NCBI RefSeq assembly: GCF_004028095.1
Contig: NZ_SBHM01000007.1
Span: 310,001 to 374,000, forward strand
Source of the DNA: Paenarthrobacter ureafaciens
GTDB taxonomy: Bacteria > Actinomycetota > Actinomycetes > Actinomycetales > Micrococcaceae
Reading direction: 5' to 3'
DNA: 64,000 bases
Part shown: one piece after another, positions 48,713 to 60,110 of the stretch
How positions within the stretch are numbered: the first letter of the stretch is position 1
How the letters are laid out: every line of letters begins with the position of its first letter
Made by a program: the position numbers and the translations under genes
Notes under the pieces: generated by a model
Databases searched by the model: none
The model's input: only the letters and a program-made list of their open reading frames with translations
What the model was told of the DNA's origin: nothing

Positions 48713-49156
48713 ATGCTCCGGGTTGTTGGCGTCGTCGTCGTCCTTGTTGTCTTCGTGTACGCCCTTGTGGATGTCATCCGTACGGACCGCCACGCCACCC
48801 GCGGGATTTCCAAACCGGCCTGGATCGTGGTCATGATCGTCTTGCCTGTGCTTGGCGCCATTCTCTGGTTTATCTTCGGCCGCCCCTACGGCAAGCCTTC
48901 GGCACAACCCGTCCGCCGCTACCCCACGGCCCCCGACGACGATCCCGAGTTCCTCCGCAACCTCGAACTCCGCCGGCGGAACCAGGCAGAAGAAGAACGG
49001 CTGAAGAAGCTCAAGGCCGAGCTCGACGCCAAGGAGCGCAAGCTCAAGGATTCCAAGGGCCCGGAGGGAACGGGCGGGCCCAAGGGCAAAGGTTTTGCTA
49101 CCGGTGAGGCCAAGCATGGCGAGCCGGACCCCCATGATACCGACGAGCTGAAGTAG
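48713..49156 (+). CDS. PLDc_N domain membrane protein
   Basis: A protein of 147 residues with two membrane helices (5-22 and 43-60) joined by the VDVIRTDRHATRGISKPAWI loop, the PLD-nuclease N-terminal domain that anchors phospholipase D-like proteins but is often found alone in actinobacteria. After the second helix comes a cytoplasmic charged coiled coil (EFLRNLELRRRNQAEEERLK onward) and a Gly/Lys-rich tail. Function unknown. The next gene starts 5 nt after its stop. Confidence 0.85.
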   Translation: MLRVVGVVVVLVVFVYALVDVIRTDRHATRGISKPAWIVVMIVLPVLGAILWFIFGRPYGKPSAQPVRRYPTAPDDDPEFLRNLELRRRNQAEEERLKKLKAELDAKERKLKDSKGPEGTGGPKGKGFATGEAKHGEPDPHDTDELK

Positions 49157-49161
49157 GTAAT

Positions 49162-49710
49162 ATGGCCACACCAGCGCCTCCGCCACGTCCCGGTGTAACG
49201 CTCTCCGCACCACCGCCCATAGCCGTTGCTACGGAGGCACCTGGTCCGGCCAAGGTGTCGCGCTCCTTGTGGGTGGCAAGCTTCGTTGCCGGAGCAGCGT
49301 TGATCGTGACGGATTTCCTCGGCAGGAACTCCCATTTCGAACGGCTCAAGGGCGTCATCGAAGGCATGGTCCCGGCTGGTGACGCTGAGTCACTGGAGGG
49401 CGCCACCGCCGTCGTTTTCCTGGGAAGCCTGTGCATGCTGGCGCTGGTGATCGCCATGGAGGCCGTCCTCCTGGCGATTATCTTCAAGCGCAGGAGCTGG
49501 GCACGATGGGCGCTGGCACCCTTGGTCCTGCTGCACGCCGTGGTCACCGTGATCATCTCGGACTTCGTCGTTGCGCCGGGTTCCGACGGTGTCCTGGCCA
49601 CCGTGCTGCTGGCCGCCCAATACATTTTGGCCGCGGCCGGACTGATCCTGCTCTTCCTCCCCGCCACAACGGCGTGGCTCAGGAGCGGGCGGGAGCAGCA
49701 GCCGGAATAG
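49162..49710 (+). CDS. Uncharacterised four-helix membrane protein
   Basis: A protein of 182 residues with a Pro/Ala-rich cytoplasmic tail (1-35) and four predicted membrane helices (about 37-52, 82-107, 115-133, 140-165). There is no catalytic motif and I do not recognise the family. It is probably co-transcribed with the PLDc_N gene. Its last 32 bases overlap the end of the convergent iniC-like gene. Confidence 0.7.
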   Translation: MATPAPPPRPGVTLSAPPPIAVATEAPGPAKVSRSLWVASFVAGAALIVTDFLGRNSHFERLKGVIEGMVPAGDAESLEGATAVVFLGSLCMLALVIAMEAVLLAIIFKRRSWARWALAPLVLLHAVVTVIISDFVVAPGSDGVLATVLLAAQYILAAAGLILLFLPATTAWLRSGREQQPE

Positions 49711-51184
49711 CCGCCAGCATCCCTTCGCAGCTGCGGATCACCACGCGGCAAGCATCCAGGGCTGACGGCTCGGTGAGCGGGTTCTCGGCGATCAGCCGCC
49801 AACGGTTCAGGCTCGCCCGCGCAGCCTCGCTGATGGCGTCGTCGTCCGCGTCCTGTGCGACTCCCAGCCGGTGAGCCGGCAGGGTCCCGCGGCCACCCAC
49901 CAGCCGTTCGGCTTCGGTGGCGAGCTCCGGAGTGAGGCCCGCGCCTTCGGTCCTCAGCTTTGCCAGCAGCTTCAGTTCCCGGAATTCGTGCGCGCCCGCC
50001 TGCAACCGTTCCATGGCCGTGAGCAGCCGGGCGGCATCCCCGCTCGCTGCTGCGCCGGCCGTCCCGGCAGTGCGGAGCAAAGCTTCCAAACCCACGACGG
50101 CGGCCCTGGCCTTGAGTGCCTCGGCCCGCGTCTGGAAGAGCGCGGCGACCGTTTGAAGCAGTTGGCCCAAGCCGCTGCGCCGGGCAAGCTCGTGGGCCAG
50201 GTTGGTGGGGTCGCTGATGCCGCCATTGATCAGCGCCACCCCGAGCCGGATCCCGAACAACCCAAACCGCGCAACCAGGGAAGCCTTGGCGCCTTGTTCC
50301 ACACCGGCGGGTTCCGGTGAACGGACAAAACGGTCCACGGACAGCAGGGTTTTGTCGCGTTGGGCCTTGTCCATTCCGGCCAAGGCAACCATGACCTCAA
50401 AGTCGGTTTGACGCATGGTTCTGGAGCTTTGGGCCAGGAGGCCTGCCACCGGGACGACGCCCAGGGCCAAGGGCTTGAGGTTCTGGTCCCGACTGTAGCG
50501 GTCGGCGATCACAGCGGCCGATATCAGGGAGTCGATCCGGCCCGCTCCGATCTCGTCCGCTCGCGAGAGCACGGCCAAGGCGTTGACGGTCCCGGACTTC
50601 CCGGCAGCGTTGTCCTTGAATGACTCGAGGAAACGCACGTCCGAGGCGTGCAGGTGCCTCATCAAATAAATGACGGCATCGGCAGACGACGGCGCGTTCT
50701 CCGGAAGAAGGAATGCCGTTGACCGTCCGGAGACGTCCTGGGAGAGGGAGGCAATGCCGGGAGTATCTATCAGGGTGAGGTCCCTGAGGCTGGCGGCCGG
50801 CCAGTCAACCACCAGGCGGTCAACATCTTCCGCCTGGATGTCCCCCAATTGAAAGACCAGCCGGCCGTCTTCCCTGGTGACCGGCAAGGTGCGGGGCTCG
50901 CCCGCAAGGGGGTGGAGCGTCACACGGGGTGTTGCTCCGTACCGGTACCAAGTAACTATGCGTGTGCATTCACCGGCGTCGGTGGGTGCGATCTCCTCGC
51001 CGATGACTGCGTTGAGCAACGTGGACTTACCGGCCTTCACCATGCCGGCCACCGCAATGCGCAGCGGCCCGTCCAGGCGGTCCGCCAGGTCGTCGATGAC
51101 CGCGAGCGCCCGGGCGTCGCCGTCGTAAATCTGCCTGGCCTGCTGCAGCAACACTGCGGCGTCGGCTACCACCTGACCATTCAT
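49679..51184 (-). CDS. Dynamin-like GTPase, IniC-like
   Basis: A bacterial dynamin-like protein of 501 residues. G1 is GMVKAGKSTLLNAVIGEE, the switch threonine region follows in DAGECTRIVTW, G3 is LIDTPGIASLS and the G4-like motif is LSRADEIG. The rest is helical (stalk-like), with no strong membrane helix. Its start overlaps the IniA-like gene by four bases, so the two are made together, as in mycobacterial iniA-iniC and other paired bacterial dynamins that bend or repair the membrane. The name rests on gene order and the adjoining IniB-type protein. Confidence 0.85.
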   Translation of the reverse strand: MNGQVVADAAVLLQQARQIYDGDARALAVIDDLADRLDGPLRIAVAGMVKAGKSTLLNAVIGEEIAPTDAGECTRIVTWYRYGATPRVTLHPLAGEPRTLPVTREDGRLVFQLGDIQAEDVDRLVVDWPAASLRDLTLIDTPGIASLSQDVSGRSTAFLLPENAPSSADAVIYLMRHLHASDVRFLESFKDNAAGKSGTVNALAVLSRADEIGAGRIDSLISAAVIADRYSRDQNLKPLALGVVPVAGLLAQSSRTMRQTDFEVMVALAGMDKAQRDKTLLSVDRFVRSPEPAGVEQGAKASLVARFGLFGIRLGVALINGGISDPTNLAHELARRSGLGQLLQTVAALFQTRAEALKARAAVVGLEALLRTAGTAGAAASGDAARLLTAMERLQAGAHEFRELKLLAKLRTEGAGLTPELATEAERLVGGRGTLPAHRLGVAQDADDDAISEAARASLNRWRLIAENPLTEPSALDACRVVIRSCEGMLAAIPAAAPARS

Positions 51185-53115
51185 CCGGCCCGCACCGCGG
51201 TGGCTTGGGAAGCCTGCTGCTGTTCAGGTGCGGCCGGCCGCTTCTCCGGTGCGGGGTGCCTCGCGTCGGCGGCACTTCCTTGCAGCTGCGTAGCTGCCTG
51301 GTGCAGGGCGTCCACCGTCTTGAGCTGGGTCCGGATCTCCTTCATGCGCAGGTCGCGTTCCACCGCGTAGGTGGCGGCGGCCTTTTGCGCGGCGGCCACG
51401 GAATCGGTAAGGGAACGGTGGTGTTCGTCAGCGATCTCGGTGAAGTGGTCCCGGGTTTCCCGCTGCACCATCCTTAAACGGTCTTTCAGCTGCTTTCCCA
51501 CTTGGAAGACGATGTCGTCGATTTGCTTCCGGACCAGAGTCTTCGCTTCGGCCTGGCGTCGTTTGAGCCGTGCTTCCTTCTCTTCGCGGTAGGCCTTCCT
51601 GCCGAGCATAAGCCCTGCCCCGACGGACAGCGGGTTGATCAGGGCCATGCCGAAGATGCCCGTCAGCAGGCCGAACATCAGCACCCCGCCGTACGAGCCG
51701 CGCATGCCGATGAGGAGTTTCTGGAGCGGTCCCAGGCGCCCGTCTTCCATGGTGGGCATTTCGCCGACCGGATCCAGTACCCCGCCCGTATCTGCGACGT
51801 TGGTCAGGGGCAGCGCGACCACTTCCTCGGAGAAGTGTTCGGCGACTTGGAAGGCAAGCCACTGGGAGCGCTCGCTGGTCCAAATGAAAGTGTCGGAGAT
51901 GGCGGCAGCCGTGCTTTGCTCCAGCCAGACGGTGAACTGATCCCATGCCGGACCCGGGTCGCCTTGGTCGATGGCGGTCTCGGCTTCGCGTTGGATGCGC
52001 CGGAGCCTGTCCCTGAGGTCGTACTCCATGTCCGCTATGAGATCGCCGATTCCGTCGTTGAGGGTGGTCTGCCAGCGGGAGGAGCGTTTCCTGAGCGCGT
52101 CGGCTTCCTGTTTGGCGGCCTGTAGGTCGGCGATCATCTGCGGGGTGCCTTCAGGGTTTTCCAGCGCTGACAGTTCGGATTGGAGGGAGAGCCTGAGGTG
52201 TTCGGTGACGGTCAACAGGTCCTGCGCCACAGAACGACGCCGGAGCGTGGCGGCTTTGCCCACGACGTCGTTGCGAAGCGACGTGATGAGCGCCGGGAAG
52301 CCTGACTCGTCGTTGAGTTCCTTATCCTTCAAGCGCGCAGCCTGCAGCCTGAGCTCCGAGGATACGGGGAACAGGGGAATTCCGGGCCCTACCTCGGACA
52401 AGTGCTGCCGGTCGAGCGCCTCGATCTGCCGCCAGCTGGGATACAGGTCGGTCTTGGTGAGCGCTGCGAGGACGTTCGGGCTGACGCGCATGGCCTGGCG
52501 AAGGAACCGGATTTCGGGTTCGGTGTATTCCTGGGAGGCGTCGGAGACGAACAACACTGCGTGTGCCGACGGCAAGGCGGTGAGGGTGGTGAGCGTGTGG
52601 CTGGAACCGAGGCCGCCCACGCCGGGGGAATCCACCAGGGTCAGTCCGCCTGCGAGGAGTTGGCGGGGCAGCGCGACTTCGGCTGCCGCAAGGTTCTTGG
52701 CGTTTCCGGGGTTGCCGGCTTCCGAAACGTACGCGGCAAGTTCGTTGATGTTGACCGGCCGGCGTTCCAGCTGGTCACTTCCCGCAGGGGCAGCTTGGGT
52801 GGCAGGGTCCTGTTCCGGTGCTTGCGGGCCCTTGGCCACCAACACCGAGGCCGATGGCGCGTCCCCGTGCTTCACCACGGTGGGCACGGAGGTGGCGACG
52901 TCGTCGTCCACCGGACAAACCGGAGCGTTGACCAAGGCATTGATGAGCTGGCTCTTGCCCTGCTTGAACTCGCCCACCACGATCACGCGGACGCTGGGGT
53001 CAAGCAAACGACGCCGGGTCTGCTCCAGCCGGCGTCGAAGGTCGTTCCTCTCCCCTGCCCCCACCAATTCCATGCCCTGTTCCACCAAAGTGGCCATGCG
53101 TTCGGTTTCCGTCAC
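51181..53115 (-). CDS. Dynamin-like GTPase, IniA-like
   Basis: A dynamin-like GTPase of 644 residues. G1 is VVGEFKQGKSQLINALV near residue 40, G3 is LVDSPGVGGLGS and G4 is ALTKTDLYPSW. A long helical stalk follows; near 490-520 a hydrophobic hairpin (GGVLMFGLLTGIFGMALINP, then LSVGAGLMLG) is the likely membrane-insertion paddle, then a coiled coil to the end. In mycobacteria IniA remodels membranes and is induced by cell-wall drugs. The GTG at 53115 has an AAAGGATC ribosome site. It is separated from iniB by a strong hairpin. Confidence 0.87.
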   Translation of the reverse strand: MTETERMATLVEQGMELVGAGERNDLRRRLEQTRRRLLDPSVRVIVVGEFKQGKSQLINALVNAPVCPVDDDVATSVPTVVKHGDAPSASVLVAKGPQAPEQDPATQAAPAGSDQLERRPVNINELAAYVSEAGNPGNAKNLAAAEVALPRQLLAGGLTLVDSPGVGGLGSSHTLTTLTALPSAHAVLFVSDASQEYTEPEIRFLRQAMRVSPNVLAALTKTDLYPSWRQIEALDRQHLSEVGPGIPLFPVSSELRLQAARLKDKELNDESGFPALITSLRNDVVGKAATLRRRSVAQDLLTVTEHLRLSLQSELSALENPEGTPQMIADLQAAKQEADALRKRSSRWQTTLNDGIGDLIADMEYDLRDRLRRIQREAETAIDQGDPGPAWDQFTVWLEQSTAAAISDTFIWTSERSQWLAFQVAEHFSEEVVALPLTNVADTGGVLDPVGEMPTMEDGRLGPLQKLLIGMRGSYGGVLMFGLLTGIFGMALINPLSVGAGLMLGRKAYREEKEARLKRRQAEAKTLVRKQIDDIVFQVGKQLKDRLRMVQRETRDHFTEIADEHHRSLTDSVAAAQKAAATYAVERDLRMKEIRTQLKTVDALHQAATQLQGSAADARHPAPEKRPAAPEQQQASQATAVRAG

Positions 53116-53162
53116 AGCTGATCCTTTGTTTGCGACCTCAAGTATGTGAATGTCCGGCGAAA

Positions 53163-53196
53163 GTGCCCGGCAGGTGGTTTCCCGCCTGCCGGGCAC
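53163..53196 (-). terminator. Intercistronic hairpin between iniB-like and iniA-like genes
   Basis: A perfect 12-bp stem GTGCCCGGCAGG/CCTGCCGGGCAC with a 10-nt loop in the 128-bp gap. Without a long U-tract it may act as a partial terminator or RNA-processing site that keeps iniB expression above iniAC. Confidence 0.6.
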
Positions 53197-53243
53197 TGCC
53201 GGGGCCTTTCCTTGCTGGCCTCTAAACCGGTTGGCTCCCGGTA

Positions 53244-54557
53244 TTAGTCGATTTCCACATCGTTCTTGGCTACCACCAGCGAGTCGTCGATGTCGTTGTA
53301 TTCGACGTCGAGTTCGTTGTCGGCAATGACCGTGTTGTCCTCAACGTTGGTGTACTCGAGTTCGACCTCGTTGTCCTGGATCACCGTGGAATCGTAGTTG
53401 AGCTGGACGTCTTCCACGTCGTACTCTGTGGAGTTGTCCACTTCCAGTTCGTTGTCCTGGACCACGATGGAGTCGTTGATGACCTCCACGTCCACGTCTC
53501 CCACTTCGAGTTCGGTGGAGTTGTCCGTCTCGTTGAACGAGTCCGTGACGTTCACTGAATTGTTCGAATTGTCCGTGTGCGTGGAGTTGTCCGTGTTGAA
53601 GGAGTCCTCGATCTCCACATCCACGTCCAGGTCCGTGTTGTAGGAATCGTCCGTGTTGTACGAATCGTCCGTGTGGGTGGAGTTGTCCGTGTTGTAGGAG
53701 TCCTTCGTCACCGAATGATCCGAGTTGTCGTTGAACGAATCCTCGATCTCCACATCCAGTTCGGTGTTGCCGACGTTCACTTCGCCGGAACCGTTGGTGA
53801 TGTTCAGCGAGTGGTCGTCGGTGTTGTTGGTGGTTGTGGTGGTGGTCGTGGTGGTTGTGGTGTTGCCCGAGTTCTCGACGTCGTCGCCGGCGGCAATGGC
53901 TCCGTCACCCGAAGCGATGACTGCGTCCTGGTTGAACAGCTGGGTGACGTCGCCGTCGGCCCAGATGTTCTGGTTCACGGACTGGTCCGTGATGGTGTCG
54001 CGGTCGTCGATGTTGGTGGTGTAGGAGTAGTTGTTCACCACATGGACCAACTGCTGGACTGCATGGGCGTGATCGTCCCAGTCGCCGCCGTTGTGTCCCC
54101 CGCCACCGCCGTGGCCGTGTCCGCCGTCGTGGTCGTCATCATCATGGCCACCCCAGCCGCCGCCACCGCCGTGGCCGTGTCCGCCGTCGTGGTCGTCATC
54201 GTCACGACCACCCCAGCCGCCGCCACCGCCGTGGCCGTGTCCGCCGTCGTGATCGTCATCGCGGCCGCCCCAGCCGCCGGTGTTGCCACCGCCGCCGGGA
54301 GCGTGGTGCTCGCCGCCACCACCGGTTGAGGCGTGGTTGCCGCCGGTGTTGTACTCACGGTCGAAGGAGGCACGGGCGTTGATGGGTGCGTAGTCCAGGA
54401 CTACGGGCCGGGCGGCATCCACATCAGCGCAGGAAACGTCCCGCAGCCCGGCGGCTGACAACGCAGCTTCGGGGTTGCGGACGAACTCATCTGCTGCGTC
54501 GGGGTTGTTGAACAGGCTCATCAGGAACTGTACGAGCTGTTGTGCGAGTGTTGGCAT
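53244..54557 (-). CDS. IniB-like protein with Gly/His/Asp-rich and acidic repeat regions
   Basis: A protein of 437 residues in three parts. Residues 1-65 match the IniB N-terminal domain (LAQQLVQFLMSLFNNPDAAD, then EFVRNPEAALSAAGL). Residues 70-175 are Gly/His/Asp-rich, with at least three near-identical copies of a unit like WGGRDDDDHDGGHGHGGGGG, encoded by tandem DNA repeats at 54100-54270. Residues 175-437 are extremely acidic, with drifting repeats such as DNSTHTDDSYNTD and VQDNELEVDN and a Thr-rich tract. No signal peptide is visible. In mycobacteria IniB is Gly-rich and of unknown role. The ATG at 54557 has a strong GAGGGAG ribosome site. Metal binding by the His/Asp units is inference. 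Confidence 0.85.
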   Translation of the reverse strand: MPTLAQQLVQFLMSLFNNPDAADEFVRNPEAALSAAGLRDVSCADVDAARPVVLDYAPINARASFDREYNTGGNHASTGGGGEHHAPGGGGNTGGWGGRDDDHDGGHGHGGGGGWGGRDDDDHDGGHGHGGGGGWGGHDDDDHDGGHGHGGGGGHNGGDWDDHAHAVQQLVHVVNNYSYTTNIDDRDTITDQSVNQNIWADGDVTQLFNQDAVIASGDGAIAAGDDVENSGNTTTTTTTTTTTNNTDDHSLNITNGSGEVNVGNTELDVEIEDSFNDNSDHSVTKDSYNTDNSTHTDDSYNTDDSYNTDLDVDVEIEDSFNTDNSTHTDNSNNSVNVTDSFNETDNSTELEVGDVDVEVINDSIVVQDNELEVDNSTEYDVEDVQLNYDSTVIQDNEVELEYTNVEDNTVIADNELDVEYNDIDDSLVVAKNDVEID

Positions 54558-54588
54558 TGGAACGCTCCCTCAAATTCTGTGGTGATGG

Positions 54589-54613
54589 AAAACGCCCGGC
54601 GCCTTTGCCGGGC
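54589..54613 (-). terminator. Terminator or attenuator hairpin just upstream of iniB-like gene
   Basis: On the minus strand GCCCGGC-6 nt-GCCGGGC is followed by GTTTTCC, ending about 32 nt before the iniB-like start. It could end the Hsp70/LuxR transcript or attenuate the iniB transcript from an upstream promoter. Confidence 0.65.
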
Positions 54614-54662
54614 TTGCATTCAACGTATGGCCGGGGGGATGCCCGGGGCATCGGGTCCGGTC

Positions 54663-54714
54663 CCCCTATCCGGCACCCCACCATTAGGGGATTTCGGCCG
54701 GGCTCCGTTAGGGG
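54663..54714. promoter_or_regulatory. Operator-like repeats upstream of iniB-like gene
   Basis: CCATTAGGGG (54681-54690) and CCGTTAGGGG (54705-54714) are direct repeats 24 bp apart, and CCCCTATCCGG (54663-54673) is a related inverted copy. They lie between the LuxR gene and iniB, where a LuxR-type activator would bind. Confidence 0.5.
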
Positions 54715-54723
54715 CACAGGGGT

Positions 54724-56793
54724 TCACTCCCCGGGCGGGTGCCCCTCACCCAGCGCGATCCGCAAGCGAACCAGCAGCTCAGAGCGGTTTTCGGCCCCTA
54801 ACCGGCGCCGCATCCTGGCCACGTGGTGTTCGGCGGTGCGGGGCGAAATGTAGATGGCCTCACCGATTTCACGGTAGGTCTTTCCCTCCAACATGAGTCT
54901 TGCCACCTCGATTTCGCGTGCACTCAAACCGTTCGGCTCGGGCGCCGGCGCGGTGGAGGCGGGAGATTCCTCATGAGTCTCCGCGGGTGCGTGGCCACCC
55001 TGCGGGTGGATGTCCCGGGCACAGGCCAGAAGCTTGACCATGTCCCGTCGTTCATCGGCACGGGCTGCCGCATGCCCGGCCAGGCGCGCCCCTTCCCAAG
55101 GCATTCCGACGGCGGCCAACCCACGGGCGGCCGTTTCGACGTCGGCCGCGGCGAACCTGCCTGCCAGGACCGATACCCAGGCCTTGCCTCCGGCGGCAAG
55201 CACACCCGCGTAGTGGCTATGCTCCGAAGCCCTGACCAAGGCCGCTGCATGTGGTGCAAGGTCCGCCGGACTCTCGCTCAGCAACGCGGCCTGGACGGCT
55301 GCCCAGTGCAGAGGGACCGACCACAGCGGCGGATTCCCGAGCCGCTCCAGCAAGTCCCAGGCCCCGTGCAGGTAGTGCGAAACCCGATGTGATTCCCGTA
55401 AACGTGCAGCGGCAACAAGCACCTCGCCCCATGGCAGGAGGCTGTACAGGTCAACGGAGACGTGCATCATGGCTTCCCGCGCCCTGTCCCATGCCAAGAC
55501 CAGCTCGTGGACTTCTCCGCCGCGGCGCGCCAAACCCAGTTCAAGGGCCGCCAGAAGGAATTCCTCCCGGGGCGCCAAGGCCCAGTGATTGGCCTTGTTG
55601 GCCTCGTTGATGGCCAGGCGGGCATCGTCCGTGTTGTCCTGCTGCATGGCACACCAGGCCTGCAACAGGTACAGCCGGGGCCGCATCGAGTCTCCGCCCT
55701 GCCCGGCGGCGACTGCTGCCTTGAGCACGGAAGCGGCCACCGCGGTCTCTCCGCTGTGCAGGGCGCACAAGGCCGCCAGCACTGCCGGTGCCTCCGGCAG
55801 GGGAATGGCTGTGCCCGCGGCGTTCATCATGTCCGAGGCCCTGATCAAGGACGGTAACCCCAAGTGCGGCTTTTGGCCCAGGGTCTGGCGCAGGCCGTCG
55901 CTTGCCAGGGATAACGCCACCGCCAAGTGGGTCGGGGACCGGCGCGAACCGCCATCGGCCACCATGGCCTCCGCTCCGGCAGTGTCTCCGGAGCCGATCA
56001 TGGCAATTGCTGCAAGGGGCACCGAGGCAGCCGTCTTCCCAGGCCCCAGCCACGAGTAGGTATCGGCACTTCGGGACATCATGCCCCGCTGGGCCCACAC
56101 CGAGGCGGCAACGTCCACTCCCCGCCGGACGTCCGGCGGTTCCGGCAGCGCGAGCAGCCGGTCTATCAAACGGCCGGCCGAGTCCAGATCACCGATGCCC
56201 GCTGCGGCCTGGGCCCGGCAGGCCGCTTTCGGCATTTCCTTGGCGCCAGCCAGCACCGACTCCGCGTAGAGAGCTGCGGCCATGGCGGGCTCGGTCTCCA
56301 GCACGTTGTCCGCGGCTTCCTCCAGTTCGGCTGCCACGCGAGAGTCCTGCAGCCCGCCCCTGGCCAGGTCACGGGCCAACTCCCCCAAGGGTCTGCCCTC
56401 TGCAGCCAACTTATCCACCAATTCCCGTTGCAGGGCGTGGATGGTTGGGACTGGAGTGCTGGTGAGCAGGGCATGCCGCACCGTGCCCACTACAGATCCG
56501 TCAGGCATCAGGAGCTGTGCATCGATCGCCGAATCAATGATCCCGGGAAGATCGCTGCGTCCTTCTAGGTTGTCCGGAAGCGGCGATGGCAGGGTGAATC
56601 CCGCGGACAACGCCAGGAGCAACTCCCGTACCGCCGCGGTCCCGCCCGGCAAGGCGGTCGACGCCGATGAGGTCGCCGCAGCCAGCTGCGTGGTCCCGTC
56701 CGAAGGCAGCTTGGTCCCGTCCGACGGCAGCGTGGCAGCCGCCGGGCGGGACTTGTCTTCCGAGGGTGCTTCCGCGTTTCCCTGGCCCCTCAT
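54724..56793 (-). CDS. LuxR-family transcriptional regulator with large helical domain
   Basis: A regulator of 689 residues. The C-terminal HTH is classic LuxR/GerE (LSAREIEVARLMLEGKTYRE, then IGEAIYISPRTAEHHVARMR). The N-terminal 600 residues are Ala/Leu-rich helical repeats like the TPR-type sensor part of MalT/LAL regulators, but no Walker A NTPase motif is present. In mycobacteria iniBAC is controlled by a MalT-like regulator (IniR) encoded nearby, so this protein is the natural candidate for control of the iniB-like operon. The ATG at 56793 starts 2 nt after the Hsp70-like stop; the frame continues further upstream only as antisense-quality Arg-rich sequence. Confidence 0.88.
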   Translation of the reverse strand: MRGQGNAEAPSEDKSRPAAATLPSDGTKLPSDGTTQLAAATSSASTALPGGTAAVRELLLALSAGFTLPSPLPDNLEGRSDLPGIIDSAIDAQLLMPDGSVVGTVRHALLTSTPVPTIHALQRELVDKLAAEGRPLGELARDLARGGLQDSRVAAELEEAADNVLETEPAMAAALYAESVLAGAKEMPKAACRAQAAAGIGDLDSAGRLIDRLLALPEPPDVRRGVDVAASVWAQRGMMSRSADTYSWLGPGKTAASVPLAAIAMIGSGDTAGAEAMVADGGSRRSPTHLAVALSLASDGLRQTLGQKPHLGLPSLIRASDMMNAAGTAIPLPEAPAVLAALCALHSGETAVAASVLKAAVAAGQGGDSMRPRLYLLQAWCAMQQDNTDDARLAINEANKANHWALAPREEFLLAALELGLARRGGEVHELVLAWDRAREAMMHVSVDLYSLLPWGEVLVAAARLRESHRVSHYLHGAWDLLERLGNPPLWSVPLHWAAVQAALLSESPADLAPHAAALVRASEHSHYAGVLAAGGKAWVSVLAGRFAAADVETAARGLAAVGMPWEGARLAGHAAARADERRDMVKLLACARDIHPQGGHAPAETHEESPASTAPAPEPNGLSAREIEVARLMLEGKTYREIGEAIYISPRTAEHHVARMRRRLGAENRSELLVRLRIALGEGHPPGE

Positions 56794-56795
56794 GC

Positions 56796-58835
56796 CTACA
56801 CCTCCGGGGACGGTGCGGGTTCTTGGCTCGGGCTCGTTGCAGGTGGAACAGGCGCCACGGACGGTTCCGTTGTCGGTTCCGTCGGCGCTGGGTCCTGCGT
56901 CACTGGAGGGGGTTCCGGCGCTTGGACGGTGGGCTCGGGCGTGGGGACCACGGGGTCCGGTTCGGGCGTTGTGGTGGGTGGCGGCTGCGTCGGGTCCGTC
57001 ACAGGAGGCTGCGTCGGGTCCGTCACGGGCGGCTGCGTCGGGTCCGTCACAGGAGGCTGCGTCGGTGGGGTGGTCGGGGTTGGACCACTGGCTGCACCAC
57101 CCGGTTCCGAGGCAGGGGGCGACGACGGCGTTGACGTCCCCGGAGTGGCAGTTCCCGTGCCGCTGCCCGGTGTGGTGGTCCCCGGCGTCGTGGTTCCGCC
57201 CGCGTTGCCGCTGGTCGCGCCGGCCGCAGTGCCGCTGCCCGTTCCGGCGCTGCCGGCACCTGGGCCGGTGGTGGACTTCTTCGCGCCCTGACCGGTGCCA
57301 GCGGACGTTCTGGCAGCGGCGCCCTTGGCGCTTGCGTCCAGTCCTGTTCCGGCCTTGGCGGCAGGAGGAACGGCCCCGCCGCCGCTGGCCTGACCCTTCG
57401 CTTGGGCTCCGCCTTGCGCACCGGCTGGTTGAGCGCCGCTTGCCTGGGCACCGCCGTCGCGCATCACGTCCGCGGCCTGTGAGCCGAAGAGCGCCTGCAC
57501 GTCCGGGCTTTGCGCCGCCGTCGCGGTCACCACGGTCAGGACGGTGGCGGCCGCCGCAGCAGCCGCGGCCATGCGGACGCGCGAACGCGGAGCGTGTCGG
57601 CCTGCTTTGGCTCCGCCCGCTGCCGCGGCCTTCAGCGCAGCCAGCGCCGGGCGTCCACGCACGACGTCGGGGCGCGGCACTGTTTCCAGCGGCACCTCGC
57701 GTTGTTCCTGGGCGGGGGCCACAGACACAGCCGCAAGCGCAGCGGCTTCGGCGTCGGGGGTGCCCTTCAGCGAAAGCGCGGCACCCAGGCAAATGGAGGC
57801 TTTGGGATCGGCGTCCACGGCGATGGGCCGCTCCAGTTCAACCGAGATCAGTTCAGCAACCAGCGGCACCCGGGACGAACCGCCAATGAGCAGCACCACG
57901 CTCAAGTCCTCCGGCTGCAACCGGACCTCAGCCAAGCTGCGTTCCAAGGCATCCAGGGTGTCACGGATGTGGGGTTCGATCATCGCCTCAAACTCGGCGC
58001 GGACCAGGCGGACGGACTGTTGGGTTCCCGGGAGGGAGACGGAGATGCTTGCTTCGCTGTCCAGGGACAGTGCTTCCTTGGCTTCCCGGCACTCACGGCG
58101 TAAGCGCGAGAGTGCGGCGAGCGTTGCAGGGTCCTCGGGCGCCAGGCCCGTGACGGCTTCGCCTAGGTGAGTCACAACGTGACGCAAAACAGCGGCGTCG
58201 AAATCGGCGCCGCCAAGGGTTTCAATGCCATCGGGATGGCCCAGTAGTTCAAAGCGTCCTGCTCCTGCCTTGCGGAGCACAGCGGTGTCGAAGGTGCCAC
58301 CGCCGAGGTCGTAGACGGCAATGGTGCTGCCATCCTCCACACGGGTTTGGGACGCGTAATGGAGTGCTGCGGCCTCCGGTTCGCTGATCAGCGTGACTTC
58401 CGGAAGTCCGGCCATATTCAGGGCTGCAAGGACCGTGGATGTCCGATGCTGGCCCCAAGCAGCCGGGTGGGTCATGACTACTGAATCCGCCGGACCGCCT
58501 TCGCGCTCCCGGGCCTTGTCCACCACCCAGCGGGCCATCGTGGCATAAACGTCTTCGGGCGCCATCCAGGCTTCCCCGACGGCGATCGGGACGGAGTCCC
58601 CAATGCGTCTCTTGAATTCCCGGACCATCCGCCGGGGGTCGTCCAGGCCCCGGCGCTCGGCGGCTTCGCCCACCAGTACCCTGCCGTCGTCGGCATAGTA
58701 GAGCACCGAGGGCACAGCACTGCCGTGCAAACCCAACGGGAGTATCTCGGGGGCAAGGTTGGTACCTTGCCCCTCCTTGTAAATGGCTGCCGCGGTAAAA
58801 CTCGTCCCGACGTCAATGGCGAGAACATAGCTCAT
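56796..58835 (-). CDS. Membrane-anchored Hsp70-like protein with extracellular Pro/Thr-rich tail
   Basis: A protein of 679 residues. Residues 1-360 form an actin/Hsp70-type ATPase (VLAIDVGTSFTAAAIY, VYDLGGGTFDTAVL, LIGGSSRVPLV and the ISEPEAAALHYA adenosine segment). No peptide-binding domain follows. A short linker leads to one membrane helix near 440 (a run of Ala ending TVLTVVTATAA), then a 220-residue Ala/Gly-, then Pro/Thr-rich tail including three PPVTDPTQ units coded by 24-bp DNA repeats (about 56996-57067). Topology should place the ATPase in the cytoplasm and the tail outside. The ATG at 58835 has a GAGG site. It is co-transcribed with the LuxR gene, ahead of the iniB-like operon. 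Confidence 0.87.
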   Translation of the reverse strand: MSYVLAIDVGTSFTAAAIYKEGQGTNLAPEILPLGLHGSAVPSVLYYADDGRVLVGEAAERRGLDDPRRMVREFKRRIGDSVPIAVGEAWMAPEDVYATMARWVVDKAREREGGPADSVVMTHPAAWGQHRTSTVLAALNMAGLPEVTLISEPEAAALHYASQTRVEDGSTIAVYDLGGGTFDTAVLRKAGAGRFELLGHPDGIETLGGADFDAAVLRHVVTHLGEAVTGLAPEDPATLAALSRLRRECREAKEALSLDSEASISVSLPGTQQSVRLVRAEFEAMIEPHIRDTLDALERSLAEVRLQPEDLSVVLLIGGSSRVPLVAELISVELERPIAVDADPKASICLGAALSLKGTPDAEAAALAAVSVAPAQEQREVPLETVPRPDVVRGRPALAALKAAAAGGAKAGRHAPRSRVRMAAAAAAAATVLTVVTATAAQSPDVQALFGSQAADVMRDGGAQASGAQPAGAQGGAQAKGQASGGGAVPPAAKAGTGLDASAKGAAARTSAGTGQGAKKSTTGPGAGSAGTGSGTAAGATSGNAGGTTTPGTTTPGSGTGTATPGTSTPSSPPASEPGGAASGPTPTTPPTQPPVTDPTQPPVTDPTQPPVTDPTQPPPTTTPEPDPVVPTPEPTVQAPEPPPVTQDPAPTEPTTEPSVAPVPPATSPSQEPAPSPEV

Positions 58836-59013
58836 AGTTACCTCGAAAAGAACATGGGCATGGCGCATGCGGTCTTCTTCACAGGCGGGGTTCACACAAG
58901 GTAGCACTTGCCCGGCGGCGGGCAAAAGCACTTTTCACAGCTTCCTTGGAGCTTTCTTCAACTGATAGTCGACTCGATGGAGAAAGCCCAGATCAGGCCA
59001 TGGTCGCGGCTTT

Positions 59014-59034
59014 GCCGGCCAACATTCGGCCGGC
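59014..59034. terminator. Hairpin after ccsA
   Basis: A perfect 7-bp GC stem GCCGGCC/GGCCGGC with a 7-nt loop, 15 nt after the ccsA stop. There is no U-tract, so its role as a terminator is weakly supported. Confidence 0.4.
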
Positions 59035-59048
59035 AGGGCGGTACGGCT

Positions 59049-60110
59049 TTAGAGGCCTGAGTACGAGTGCAGGCCGTTGAAGACCGTGTTCACCAGCGTG
59101 AAGTTGATGATCACACAGGCGTAGCCCACGATCGACAACCATGCAGCACGCGTTCCGGTCCAGCCGCGGGTTGCCCTGGCGTGGAGGTAGCCGGCGTAGA
59201 CCACCCAGATGACGAACGTCCACACTTCCTTGGGGTCCCAGCCCCAGAAACGGCCCCACGCCTTTTCGGCCCAGATGGCACCGAACATCAGGGTGAAGGT
59301 CCAGCCGACAAAGGCCACGGTGTTGATCCGGTAGGAAAGGTTCTCCAGGCTCAAGGCGTTGGGGACCACGCGCAGGAACGCCAGGTTGTCCGCGCGGCCT
59401 GCGGCCAGGTTCTTCTGGCGGTAGGACTGGAGCAGCTGCAGCGCGGACATCGCGAACGTCAGGGTGAACAGCGCAGAGGACAGCACCGCAATGGACACAT
59501 GGATGATCAGCCAGTAGCTCTGCAACGCGGGAACGAGGTGGCCCACGGGAGTCCAGAAAGCCACGGACGCGGCAACGAGCATGATGATGCCCAGGCCAAC
59601 CACGAACGTGCCCAGGAAGCGGAGGTCCCTGCGGATCAGCGCGATAAGGAAGACCGCCACCGCCACGAAAGCACCCGTGGTGAGGAACTCGTACATGTTG
59701 CCCCACGGCACGCGGCCGGCACCCAGCGCACGCGTGAGGACGCCGGCACCGTGGATGAGGACACCCAGGACGGTCAGTGCTACGCCCACCCGGGCGGCAG
59801 CCCGGCGTTCGCCTGCGTACTTCATGTCGCCCGCTGCCGTCGACTCAGCAACGGTAGGGCCCGACGTCGGACGCTCGCCACGGTCCGCCGGCCCTGCGGC
59901 GTCGGAGGCACCCAAGCCGATTCGGCCGGCCGCAACGGCAACCTTTTGCGTCGTCGAACCCGCTGCCGCCTTCAGGTCAACGGCACGCAGGGTCTTGCTG
60001 CTCTTGGCCAGGTCCCAGAGGAAAGCAAGGAACGCAATAGTGTATGTGCCGGCGGCCAACAGCATGAAGAGCTCACTGTACTGGCCCAGGGTTTCGTTGA
60101 TAGCGGGCAT
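59049..60110 (-). CDS. ccsA: Cytochrome c biogenesis protein CcsA/ResC (haem lyase subunit)
   Basis: The haem-handling partner of ResB in System II cytochrome c maturation, 353 residues. It has several membrane helices, conserved histidines (for example IHVSIAVLSSALF) and the periplasmic WWD-type motif WGRFWGWDPKEVWTF that presents haem. A soluble loop at about 40-100 separates the first helix from the rest. Its ATG shares a base with the resB stop (TAATG), so the two subunits are co-translated. It is the last gene of the ccs operon. Confidence 0.93.
   Translation of the reverse strand: MPAINETLGQYSELFMLLAAGTYTIAFLAFLWDLAKSSKTLRAVDLKAAAGSTTQKVAVAAGRIGLGASDAAGPADRGERPTSGPTVAESTAAGDMKYAGERRAAARVGVALTVLGVLIHGAGVLTRALGAGRVPWGNMYEFLTTGAFVAVAVFLIALIRRDLRFLGTFVVGLGIIMLVAASVAFWTPVGHLVPALQSYWLIIHVSIAVLSSALFTLTFAMSALQLLQSYRQKNLAAGRADNLAFLRVVPNALSLENLSYRINTVAFVGWTFTLMFGAIWAEKAWGRFWGWDPKEVWTFVIWVVYAGYLHARATRGWTGTRAAWLSIVGYACVIINFTLVNTVFNGLHSYSGL

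Follow-up and report, generated by a model that had tools for sequence, protein, structure and literature searches.

The window examined here, a 64,000-nucleotide stretch of Paenarthrobacter ureafaciens DNA (NCBI RefSeq assembly GCF_004028095.1, contig NZ_SBHM01000007.1, positions 310,001 to 374,000 of the forward strand), contains a Paenarthrobacter iniBAC envelope-stress locus, of a kind known chiefly from mycobacteria. The locus comprises five open reading frames (ORFs) on the minus strand encoding, in order, (i) an Hsp70-like membrane protein, hereafter H, (ii) a homologue of the regulator IniR, (iii) an IniB-like protein, and (iv, v) two dynamin-like GTPases of the IniA and IniC types (Table 1). 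ORFs, strand and order agree with an original prediction read from the nucleotide letters, as does the 2-nt spacing between the stop codon of H and the start codon of the iniR homologue; the iniA and iniC frames overlap by 4 nt. Overall that prediction is partly supported, having recognized the right gene set and mistaken its history. The H-IniR-iniBAC set is real and conserved, and H appears to be a long-conserved and almost unstudied part of the ini system.

The predicted iniBAC-like dynamin system is borne out by the individual matches. The IniB-like protein, encoded ahead of the dynamins, scores 64.2 bits against NF038175 (IniB_NTERM; cut-off 40), with the N-terminal domain at residues 7-55 followed by low-complexity repeats. 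Both GTPases exceed the Pfam cut-off for Dynamin_N (PF00350), and the IniA-like protein aligns with the solved IniA structure 6j72 over residues 37-638; because this alignment begins only at residue 37, the GTG at 53115 is the more likely start of iniA. The second dynamin, directly following iniA, is assigned to IniC by its PF00350 match and gene position rather than by a curated IniC model score. The closest named proteins are P. ureafaciens entries, the regulator being 96% identical and H 99% identical over residues 1-445. The mycobacterial iniBAC/IniR system (Rv0339c / MMAR_0612; PMC5760070) displays the same IniB N-terminal domain, IniA/IniC dynamins, and IniR sensor and LuxR domains, whereas the window has all five genes co-directional and an IniR devoid of the P-loop ATPase.

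The LuxR-type gene, described in the original prediction as the system's own regulator, proves on sequence grounds to be the homologue of IniR, lacking the P-loop ATPase domain. The protein matches the IniR model NF038181 at model positions 280-825 of 827 with 361.3 bits, below the equivalog cut-off of 750 bits, which the full-length Arthrobacter-type IniR of locus L098 likewise misses (496.1 bits). Its tetratricopeptide repeat (TPR)-like sensor and C-terminal LuxR helix-turn-helix (HTH), the latter with a GerE match of 47.1 bits, are collinear with IniR both along the model positions and in an AlphaFold2 model of mean predicted local distance difference test (pLDDT) 84.9; the short helical part ahead of the sensor we read as a winged-helix remnant. 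A Walker A motif is absent from the protein, the disordered N-terminus is followed by almost only helices in the model, and the P-loop NTPase domain that marks a signal transduction ATPase with numerous domains (STAND) was not found. The missing part corresponds to residues 24-247 of Mycobacterium marinum IniR, described as an AAA+ ATPase by Boot et al. (PMC5760070, section 10). Presence of the ATPase was judged by NF038181 coverage, Walker A, and structure model, Pfam AAA models being unsuitable because even the full-length IniR of L048 gives no AAA match. L098, from another genus of the same family, encodes an IniR of 868 residues with a Walker A motif and a match to model positions 3-825; since same-family and mycobacterial-type loci keep the ATPase domain, its loss in the window lineage is more likely than its never having been present. 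Elsewhere in the genome the IniR model scores no locus higher than 39.8 bits. Foldseek matches of the IniR homologue include structures of Tom70/Tom71, in some cases together with Hsp70 tails; with TM-scores of about 0.2 they reflect common TPR architecture and carry no weight as evidence for binding of Hsp70. Among the 50 matches listed, MalT is absent.

H comprises a DnaK-type ATPase domain (residues ~1-356), one predicted transmembrane (TM) helix, and a tail rich in proline, threonine, glycine and alanine, in agreement with the Hsp70-type ATPase with membrane helix and outer tail that had been predicted. PF00012 (HSP70) is matched at 166.2 bits, above the Pfam cut-off, and a phmmer comparison aligns residues 1-355 with the solved DnaK 2v7y (E 1.5e-38). 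The AlphaFold2 model, poor overall (mean pLDDT 58.1), reaches block means above 70 for residues 1-20 and 91-360. A substrate-binding domain or lid was not found in H: the best PF00012 match stops at profile position 371 of 599, the DnaK alignment at residue 355, and block means fall below 60 beyond residue 360. H thus shares with DnaK/Hsp70 chaperones the nucleotide-binding domain with its phosphate and adenosine motifs, and differs from them by the missing substrate-binding domain, the TM helix and extracytoplasmic tail, and a family signature, R-[IV]-G-D-x-V-P. Of 63 representative H proteins, 59 show a predicted TM helix, always with more lysine and arginine before than after it, and the outer tail runs to a median of 215 residues with 39% proline plus threonine; no C-terminal motif was found among the nine tail ends inspected. 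In the window, H keeps a DnaK-like ATP site with all 13 checked residues intact, including D8, G10, T11, K75, E152, D176, GGGT and GGS, whereas mycobacterial-type H is degenerate, having lost several nucleotide-site residues, the catalytic lysine included. Among the 18 representatives without that lysine, R77, G79, D80, V82, P83, P124, W127, A252, K253, E254, L256 and S257 are each kept in 15 to 18, and the retention of the first seven is as expected for a partner interface.

Upstream of iniB lies a putative IniR operator, the sequence at 54663-54690 being CCCCTAATGGTGGGGTGCCGGATAGGGG, accompanied by a second half-site. The pattern CCCCTAAYGN{4,30}TAGGGG has a single match in the 4.4-Mb genome, and the reversed control pattern has none. 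Across related loci, the 300 nt preceding iniB contain CCCCTA[AG][CT]G at 46 of 71, a count in which some loci may be misassigned given the loose IniB threshold (15 bits). The sites number 76, against 11 for the reversed control, and their density of 3.57 per kb compares with 0.061 in the loci taken whole. By IniR type, the element is present at 25 of 32 loci without the ATPase and at 21 of 39 with it. A similar CCCCTAAYG element stands upstream of iniB in mycobacterial-type loci, often as direct repeats, the window's family having mostly the dyad; the 10-of-12 dyad scores of mycobacterial-type loci, taken singly, are matched by some shuffles. Upstream of iniB, an element of the CCCCTAAYG type is common to the groups, and it fits the reported binding of IniR just upstream of iniBAC, the only operon IniR is described as regulating (PMC5760070); the available text of that source names no IniR binding motif. 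Autoregulation of H-iniR through the same element was set aside, the dyad pattern having no second match in the genome, although half-sites before H were not tested separately.

Table 1. Features of the ini locus in window coordinates.
Feature	Position	Strand	Basis
H (Hsp70-like membrane protein)	56796-58835	-	679 aa; PF00012 match
Predicted TM helix of H	57522-57578	-	residues 420-438; hydropathy; basic residues before; predicted N-in/C-out
Predicted extracytoplasmic low-complexity tail of H	56799-57521	-	composition; low pLDDT
IniR homologue without P-loop ATPase	54724-56793	-	NF038181 match; GerE HTH
Parts of the IniR homologue	residues 1-47 disorder; ~53-132 helical; 138-595 TPR-like superhelix; 623-675 LuxR HTH		AlphaFold2
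Second half-site CCCCTAACGG	54705-54714	-	sequence; same element enriched upstream of iniB
Putative IniR operator dyad CCCCTAATG-N13-TAGGGG upstream of iniB	54663-54690	-	genome pattern search; related elements in relatives
IniB-like protein	53244-54557	-	437 aa; NF038175 match
iniB-iniA intergenic hairpin	53162-53197	-	13-bp perfect stem; fold z -5.27
IniA-type dynamin-like GTPase	51181-53196	-	PF00350 75.6 bits; 6j72 461.6 bits
IniC-type dynamin-like GTPase	49679-51184	-	PF00350 51.7 bits; iniA adjacency kept in relatives

The association of these genes was followed in 394 sampled genomes of the class, with IniR at E 1e-30 or better in 38 of them, and in two sets of 55 loci (picked for holding IniR or IniB) and 80 loci, whose counts must not be summed because they overlap (at least eight contigs of equal length in the two sets, e.g., L103/L173 and L107/L181). 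Adjacency was scored by script; three pairs that the script missed, at L049, L103 and L173, are counted as adjacent because H there abuts or overlaps iniR. In the 80-locus set, H lies directly upstream of iniR at 76 loci (75 by script, including L182 with broken frames, and L173 by coordinates), and at the remaining four no more than 370 nt separate the start of the iniR frame from a contig end. The two genes share a strand, and the scripted gap between them falls within -4 to +6 nt in 69 of 75 cases. Gene content, order and orientation all match the five-gene set of the window at 64 of the 80 loci, a conservation that rules out chance juxtaposition; the other 16 comprise 11 that reach a contig end, three Microbacterium loci with iniA/iniC inverted (one of them also cut), L182, and L147. 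In the 55-locus set, H stands beside iniR at 44 loci (42 by script plus L049 and L103), including L101, with a broken iniR, and L104, where a short H ends 710 nt before iniR; L061 and L106 stop at a contig edge. Of the 197 genomes searched in the window's family, the same 19 hold all three of H, IniR and IniA, and the others hold none of them at the cut-offs used (E 1e-60; 1e-40 for IniR). The linkage of the Hsp70-like and LuxR-type genes with the ini genes, on which the original prediction depended, is thus conserved in related genomes.

The arrangement varies by group: co-directional H-R-B-A-C in the window's family, Agromyces, Glaciibacter and others, iniBAC divergent in a mycobacterial-type genus (g75, Mycobacterium by our inference from IniR model scores), and iniA/iniC inverted in Microbacterium, the H-iniR pair being kept in every arrangement. 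H also accompanies full-length IniR, at mycobacterial-type loci among others, and is directly upstream of iniR at most such loci, so that the Hsp70-like gene is no gain of the present set, as had been proposed; a dnaK-like gene 'directly downstream of iniR' is noted for M. smegmatis in one sentence of PMC5760070 (section 10). Within the openly licensed literature, as far as the sources were available, this sentence is the sole prior mention found of an Hsp70-type gene at iniR, and the accessible main text of PMC13413693 contains neither 'Hsp70' nor 'dnaK'. The M. smegmatis gene likewise adjoins iniR, but that section mentions it for one species, in a downstream position and with no analysis beyond this, whereas H is a family with an outer tail behind a TM helix, present in many genera and as a rule immediately upstream of iniR. 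Loss of H at L057-L059 was considered and rejected, since H stands next to iniC at L057 and L059 and a wider search of the L058 genome places it about 1 kb past iniC, just beyond the stretch first retrieved. As to individual loci, L147 (Pseudarthrobacter sp. H3Y2-7) has H, with phosphate-loop changes, iniR and iniB, iniA/iniC not being found in the retrieved DNA, and is perhaps a decaying locus; broken frames affect H and/or iniR at L182 (Pseudarthrobacter sp. Fe7) and at L101, one of two loci in genome G667 and the second of them.

Trehalose, and ATP acting through the ATPase domain, have been proposed in the available sources as cues of IniR. A mycolate/trehalose-lipid envelope is not expected in the Paenarthrobacter host, and the trehalose cue therefore need not apply here. 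In the part of the source available, the proposal of ATP as a cue leaves undetermined whether IniR senses it through this domain (PMC6104191). H may act as a membrane gate on IniR according to the state of the wall, IniR in turn switching on iniBAC, a proposal to which we give an even chance. In its favour are the tight H-iniR pairing across gene arrangements, the joint occurrence of H, IniR and IniA, the predicted topology of H, the residues retained in H proteins without the catalytic lysine, and the element preceding iniB. The control module would consist of two proteins, namely (i) IniR, with its helical remnant, TPR-like sensor and LuxR domain, and (ii) the membrane-anchored Hsp70/actin-fold H. 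The disordered Pro/Thr-rich tail of H would enter the cell wall and report its state, and the cytoplasmic ATPase domain would contact IniR. In Bacillus, RsgI and class A penicillin-binding proteins are single-pass proteins that sense the wall through a long, disordered segment outside the cytoplasm, as proposed for H, but their cytoplasmic part differs in having no Hsp70-type domain. Depending on nucleotide and tail state, H would then either hold IniR inactive at the membrane, as MalK does with MalT, or activate it. IniR would then bind the CCCCTAAYG element and turn on iniB, iniA and iniC, and the dynamins would remodel or repair the membrane, the fission activity of IniA, an enzyme reported to cut membranes (PMC6715688), serving to protect it. 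The order of events originally predicted, with the Hsp70-like protein sensing, the LuxR-type protein responding and iniBAC being induced, is a plausible one, with which the conserved iniB-upstream element is consistent.

The closest worked precedent among those examined is the anchoring of MalT by MalK in Escherichia coli, where, according to the available part of PMC10427625, a membrane-bound ATPase tethers a LuxR-type regulator with a helical sensor at the membrane. The analogy is partial: MalT keeps its STAND ATPase and MalK is an ABC ATPase, whereas H would be an actin/Hsp70-fold ATPase whose contact with IniR we infer.

Several observations weigh against a gating role of H. The sensing function suggested for the tail derives from its composition; four of the 63 H representatives (L066, L073, L104, L107) have no clear TM helix; degenerate nucleotide sites in many members mean that ATP hydrolysis cannot be required everywhere; and 25 of the 71 loci lack the strict element upstream of iniB, several of them having diverged dyads. 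Four mycobacterial-type genomes searched (G371, G275, G475, G512) hold three to four H-like genes each, some distant from the ini locus, which form a paralogue family. The openly licensed literature yielded no interaction, expression or phenotype data on H. Finally, at nine of the 55 loci (L057-L059, L062-L064, L069, L077, L087) H stands beside or beyond iniC or iniA and not beside iniR, a location that a role with the dynamins fits equally well.

Such a role is the main rival to gating of IniR: H would serve the effectors as a membrane-anchored, ATP-driven scaffold or chaperone arranging IniB, IniA and IniC at the damaged membrane, and would be co-expressed with iniR only as part of one module. 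Besides those nine loci, additional H genes follow iniC elsewhere (e.g., L052, L053, L082, L086), and the membrane anchoring of H resembles the site of dynamin action; yet the spacing between H and iniR is near zero at most loci, even where iniBAC is on the opposite strand, and H has no substrate-binding domain. We consider it possible, if rather unlikely, that H acts in this way.

A different proposal ascribes to H the nucleotide switch itself: where IniR lost its P-loop, the switch would have passed to H, which would act as the ATPase chain in a STAND-like regulator of two chains. This proposal was weighed on an IniR tree from which L061, L069, L087, L101, L106, L117, L180 and L182 were excluded (cut, broken, short or duplicate), the other 128 rows being clustered to 73. 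On the Micrococcales side of this tree, all 13 nucleotide-site residues of H are intact in 26 of 27 ATPase-less rows and in 10 of 21 ATPase-bearing rows, the single exception among the former being L147, which is also without iniA/iniC. Arthrobacter sp. ISL-95 carries two complete ini loci in opposite states, L159 with no P-loop and an intact H, L170 with a P-loop and a damaged H. The strict 13-residue test also counts mild changes, however, and by loss of the catalytic lysine alone the contrast shrinks to 0/27 versus 3/21. Six changes of P-loop state are required on the tree, and once relatedness is considered a sign test has four well-supported independent pairs, with which significance is out of reach; the two largest ATPase-less clades may represent one loss, which is not rejected (approximately unbiased (AU) test, p 0.39). 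Outside the Micrococcales side, all 12 scored P-loop rows have a degenerate H. Three further loci there, L065, L067 and L068, combine a missing P-loop with a degenerate H, although L065 and L068 retain later parts of the ATPase region (model matches from 134 and 193). The trade-off is therefore false as a general rule, and a strict reciprocity in which one of the two ATPases must persist was rejected on the same three loci and a tree test unable to reach significance. Within Micrococcales the trade-off is suggestive; overall, a transfer of the switch to H seems unlikely.

It is very improbable that H merely rides along as an envelope protein with some unrelated function, retained through shared induction or gene order: the degenerate active sites of many members and the lack of functional data found in the literature would suit such a passenger, but the exact co-occurrence in 19 of 197 genomes and the finding of H, in several arrangements, at almost all sampled ini loci that could be read would not.

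Gating of IniR by H can also be framed more broadly. H would then be an envelope sensor that has been overlooked and serves the IniR regulon generally, throughout Actinomycetes; in Paenarthrobacter and Pseudarthrobacter it would supply the lost IniR ATP switch in trans, so that a transmembrane Hsp70-fold ATPase would gate a TPR-LuxR activator. In this full extent the proposal is unlikely to hold. H provides a named candidate for a missing sensor through which IniR would learn of damage to the wall. In the window the P-loop part is deleted while an operator-like element and the effector operon persist, and H with its outer tail is coupled to IniR at most loci sampled, making the soil genus Paenarthrobacter a setting in which to test H as a sensor.

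The cytochrome c assembly gene and the ResB gene upstream of H are not counted as part of the ini system. A Sigma-70 scan of 53000-59100 returned no promoter-like sites, and terminator-like sites numbered 4 against 4.5 expected; Rfam gave no matches at gathering threshold in 49000-59500. PADLOC reported weak LeoBC/LeoA matches to the dynamins (58.9, 39, 36.8 and 24.1 bits, with no cut-offs given), which probably reflect the common dynamin fold, and PHROGs returned no matches for the two proteins; an anti-phage reading was rejected, the PADLOC matches being weak, including one of 21.7 bits between PDC-M61B and H.

The spacer between iniB and iniA contains a hairpin that may set a high ratio of IniB to IniA/IniC. 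A stem of at least 9 bp is found in this spacer at 34 of 55 related loci, against 0.4 expected from shuffles. The hairpin sequences vary by lineage, with GCCCGGCAGG..CCTGCCGGGC in Arthrobacter types and GGCGGGGA..TCCCCGCC in mycobacterial types (spacers of L070, L098, L104, L048, L054, L057 and others), so that structure rather than sequence seems to be conserved.

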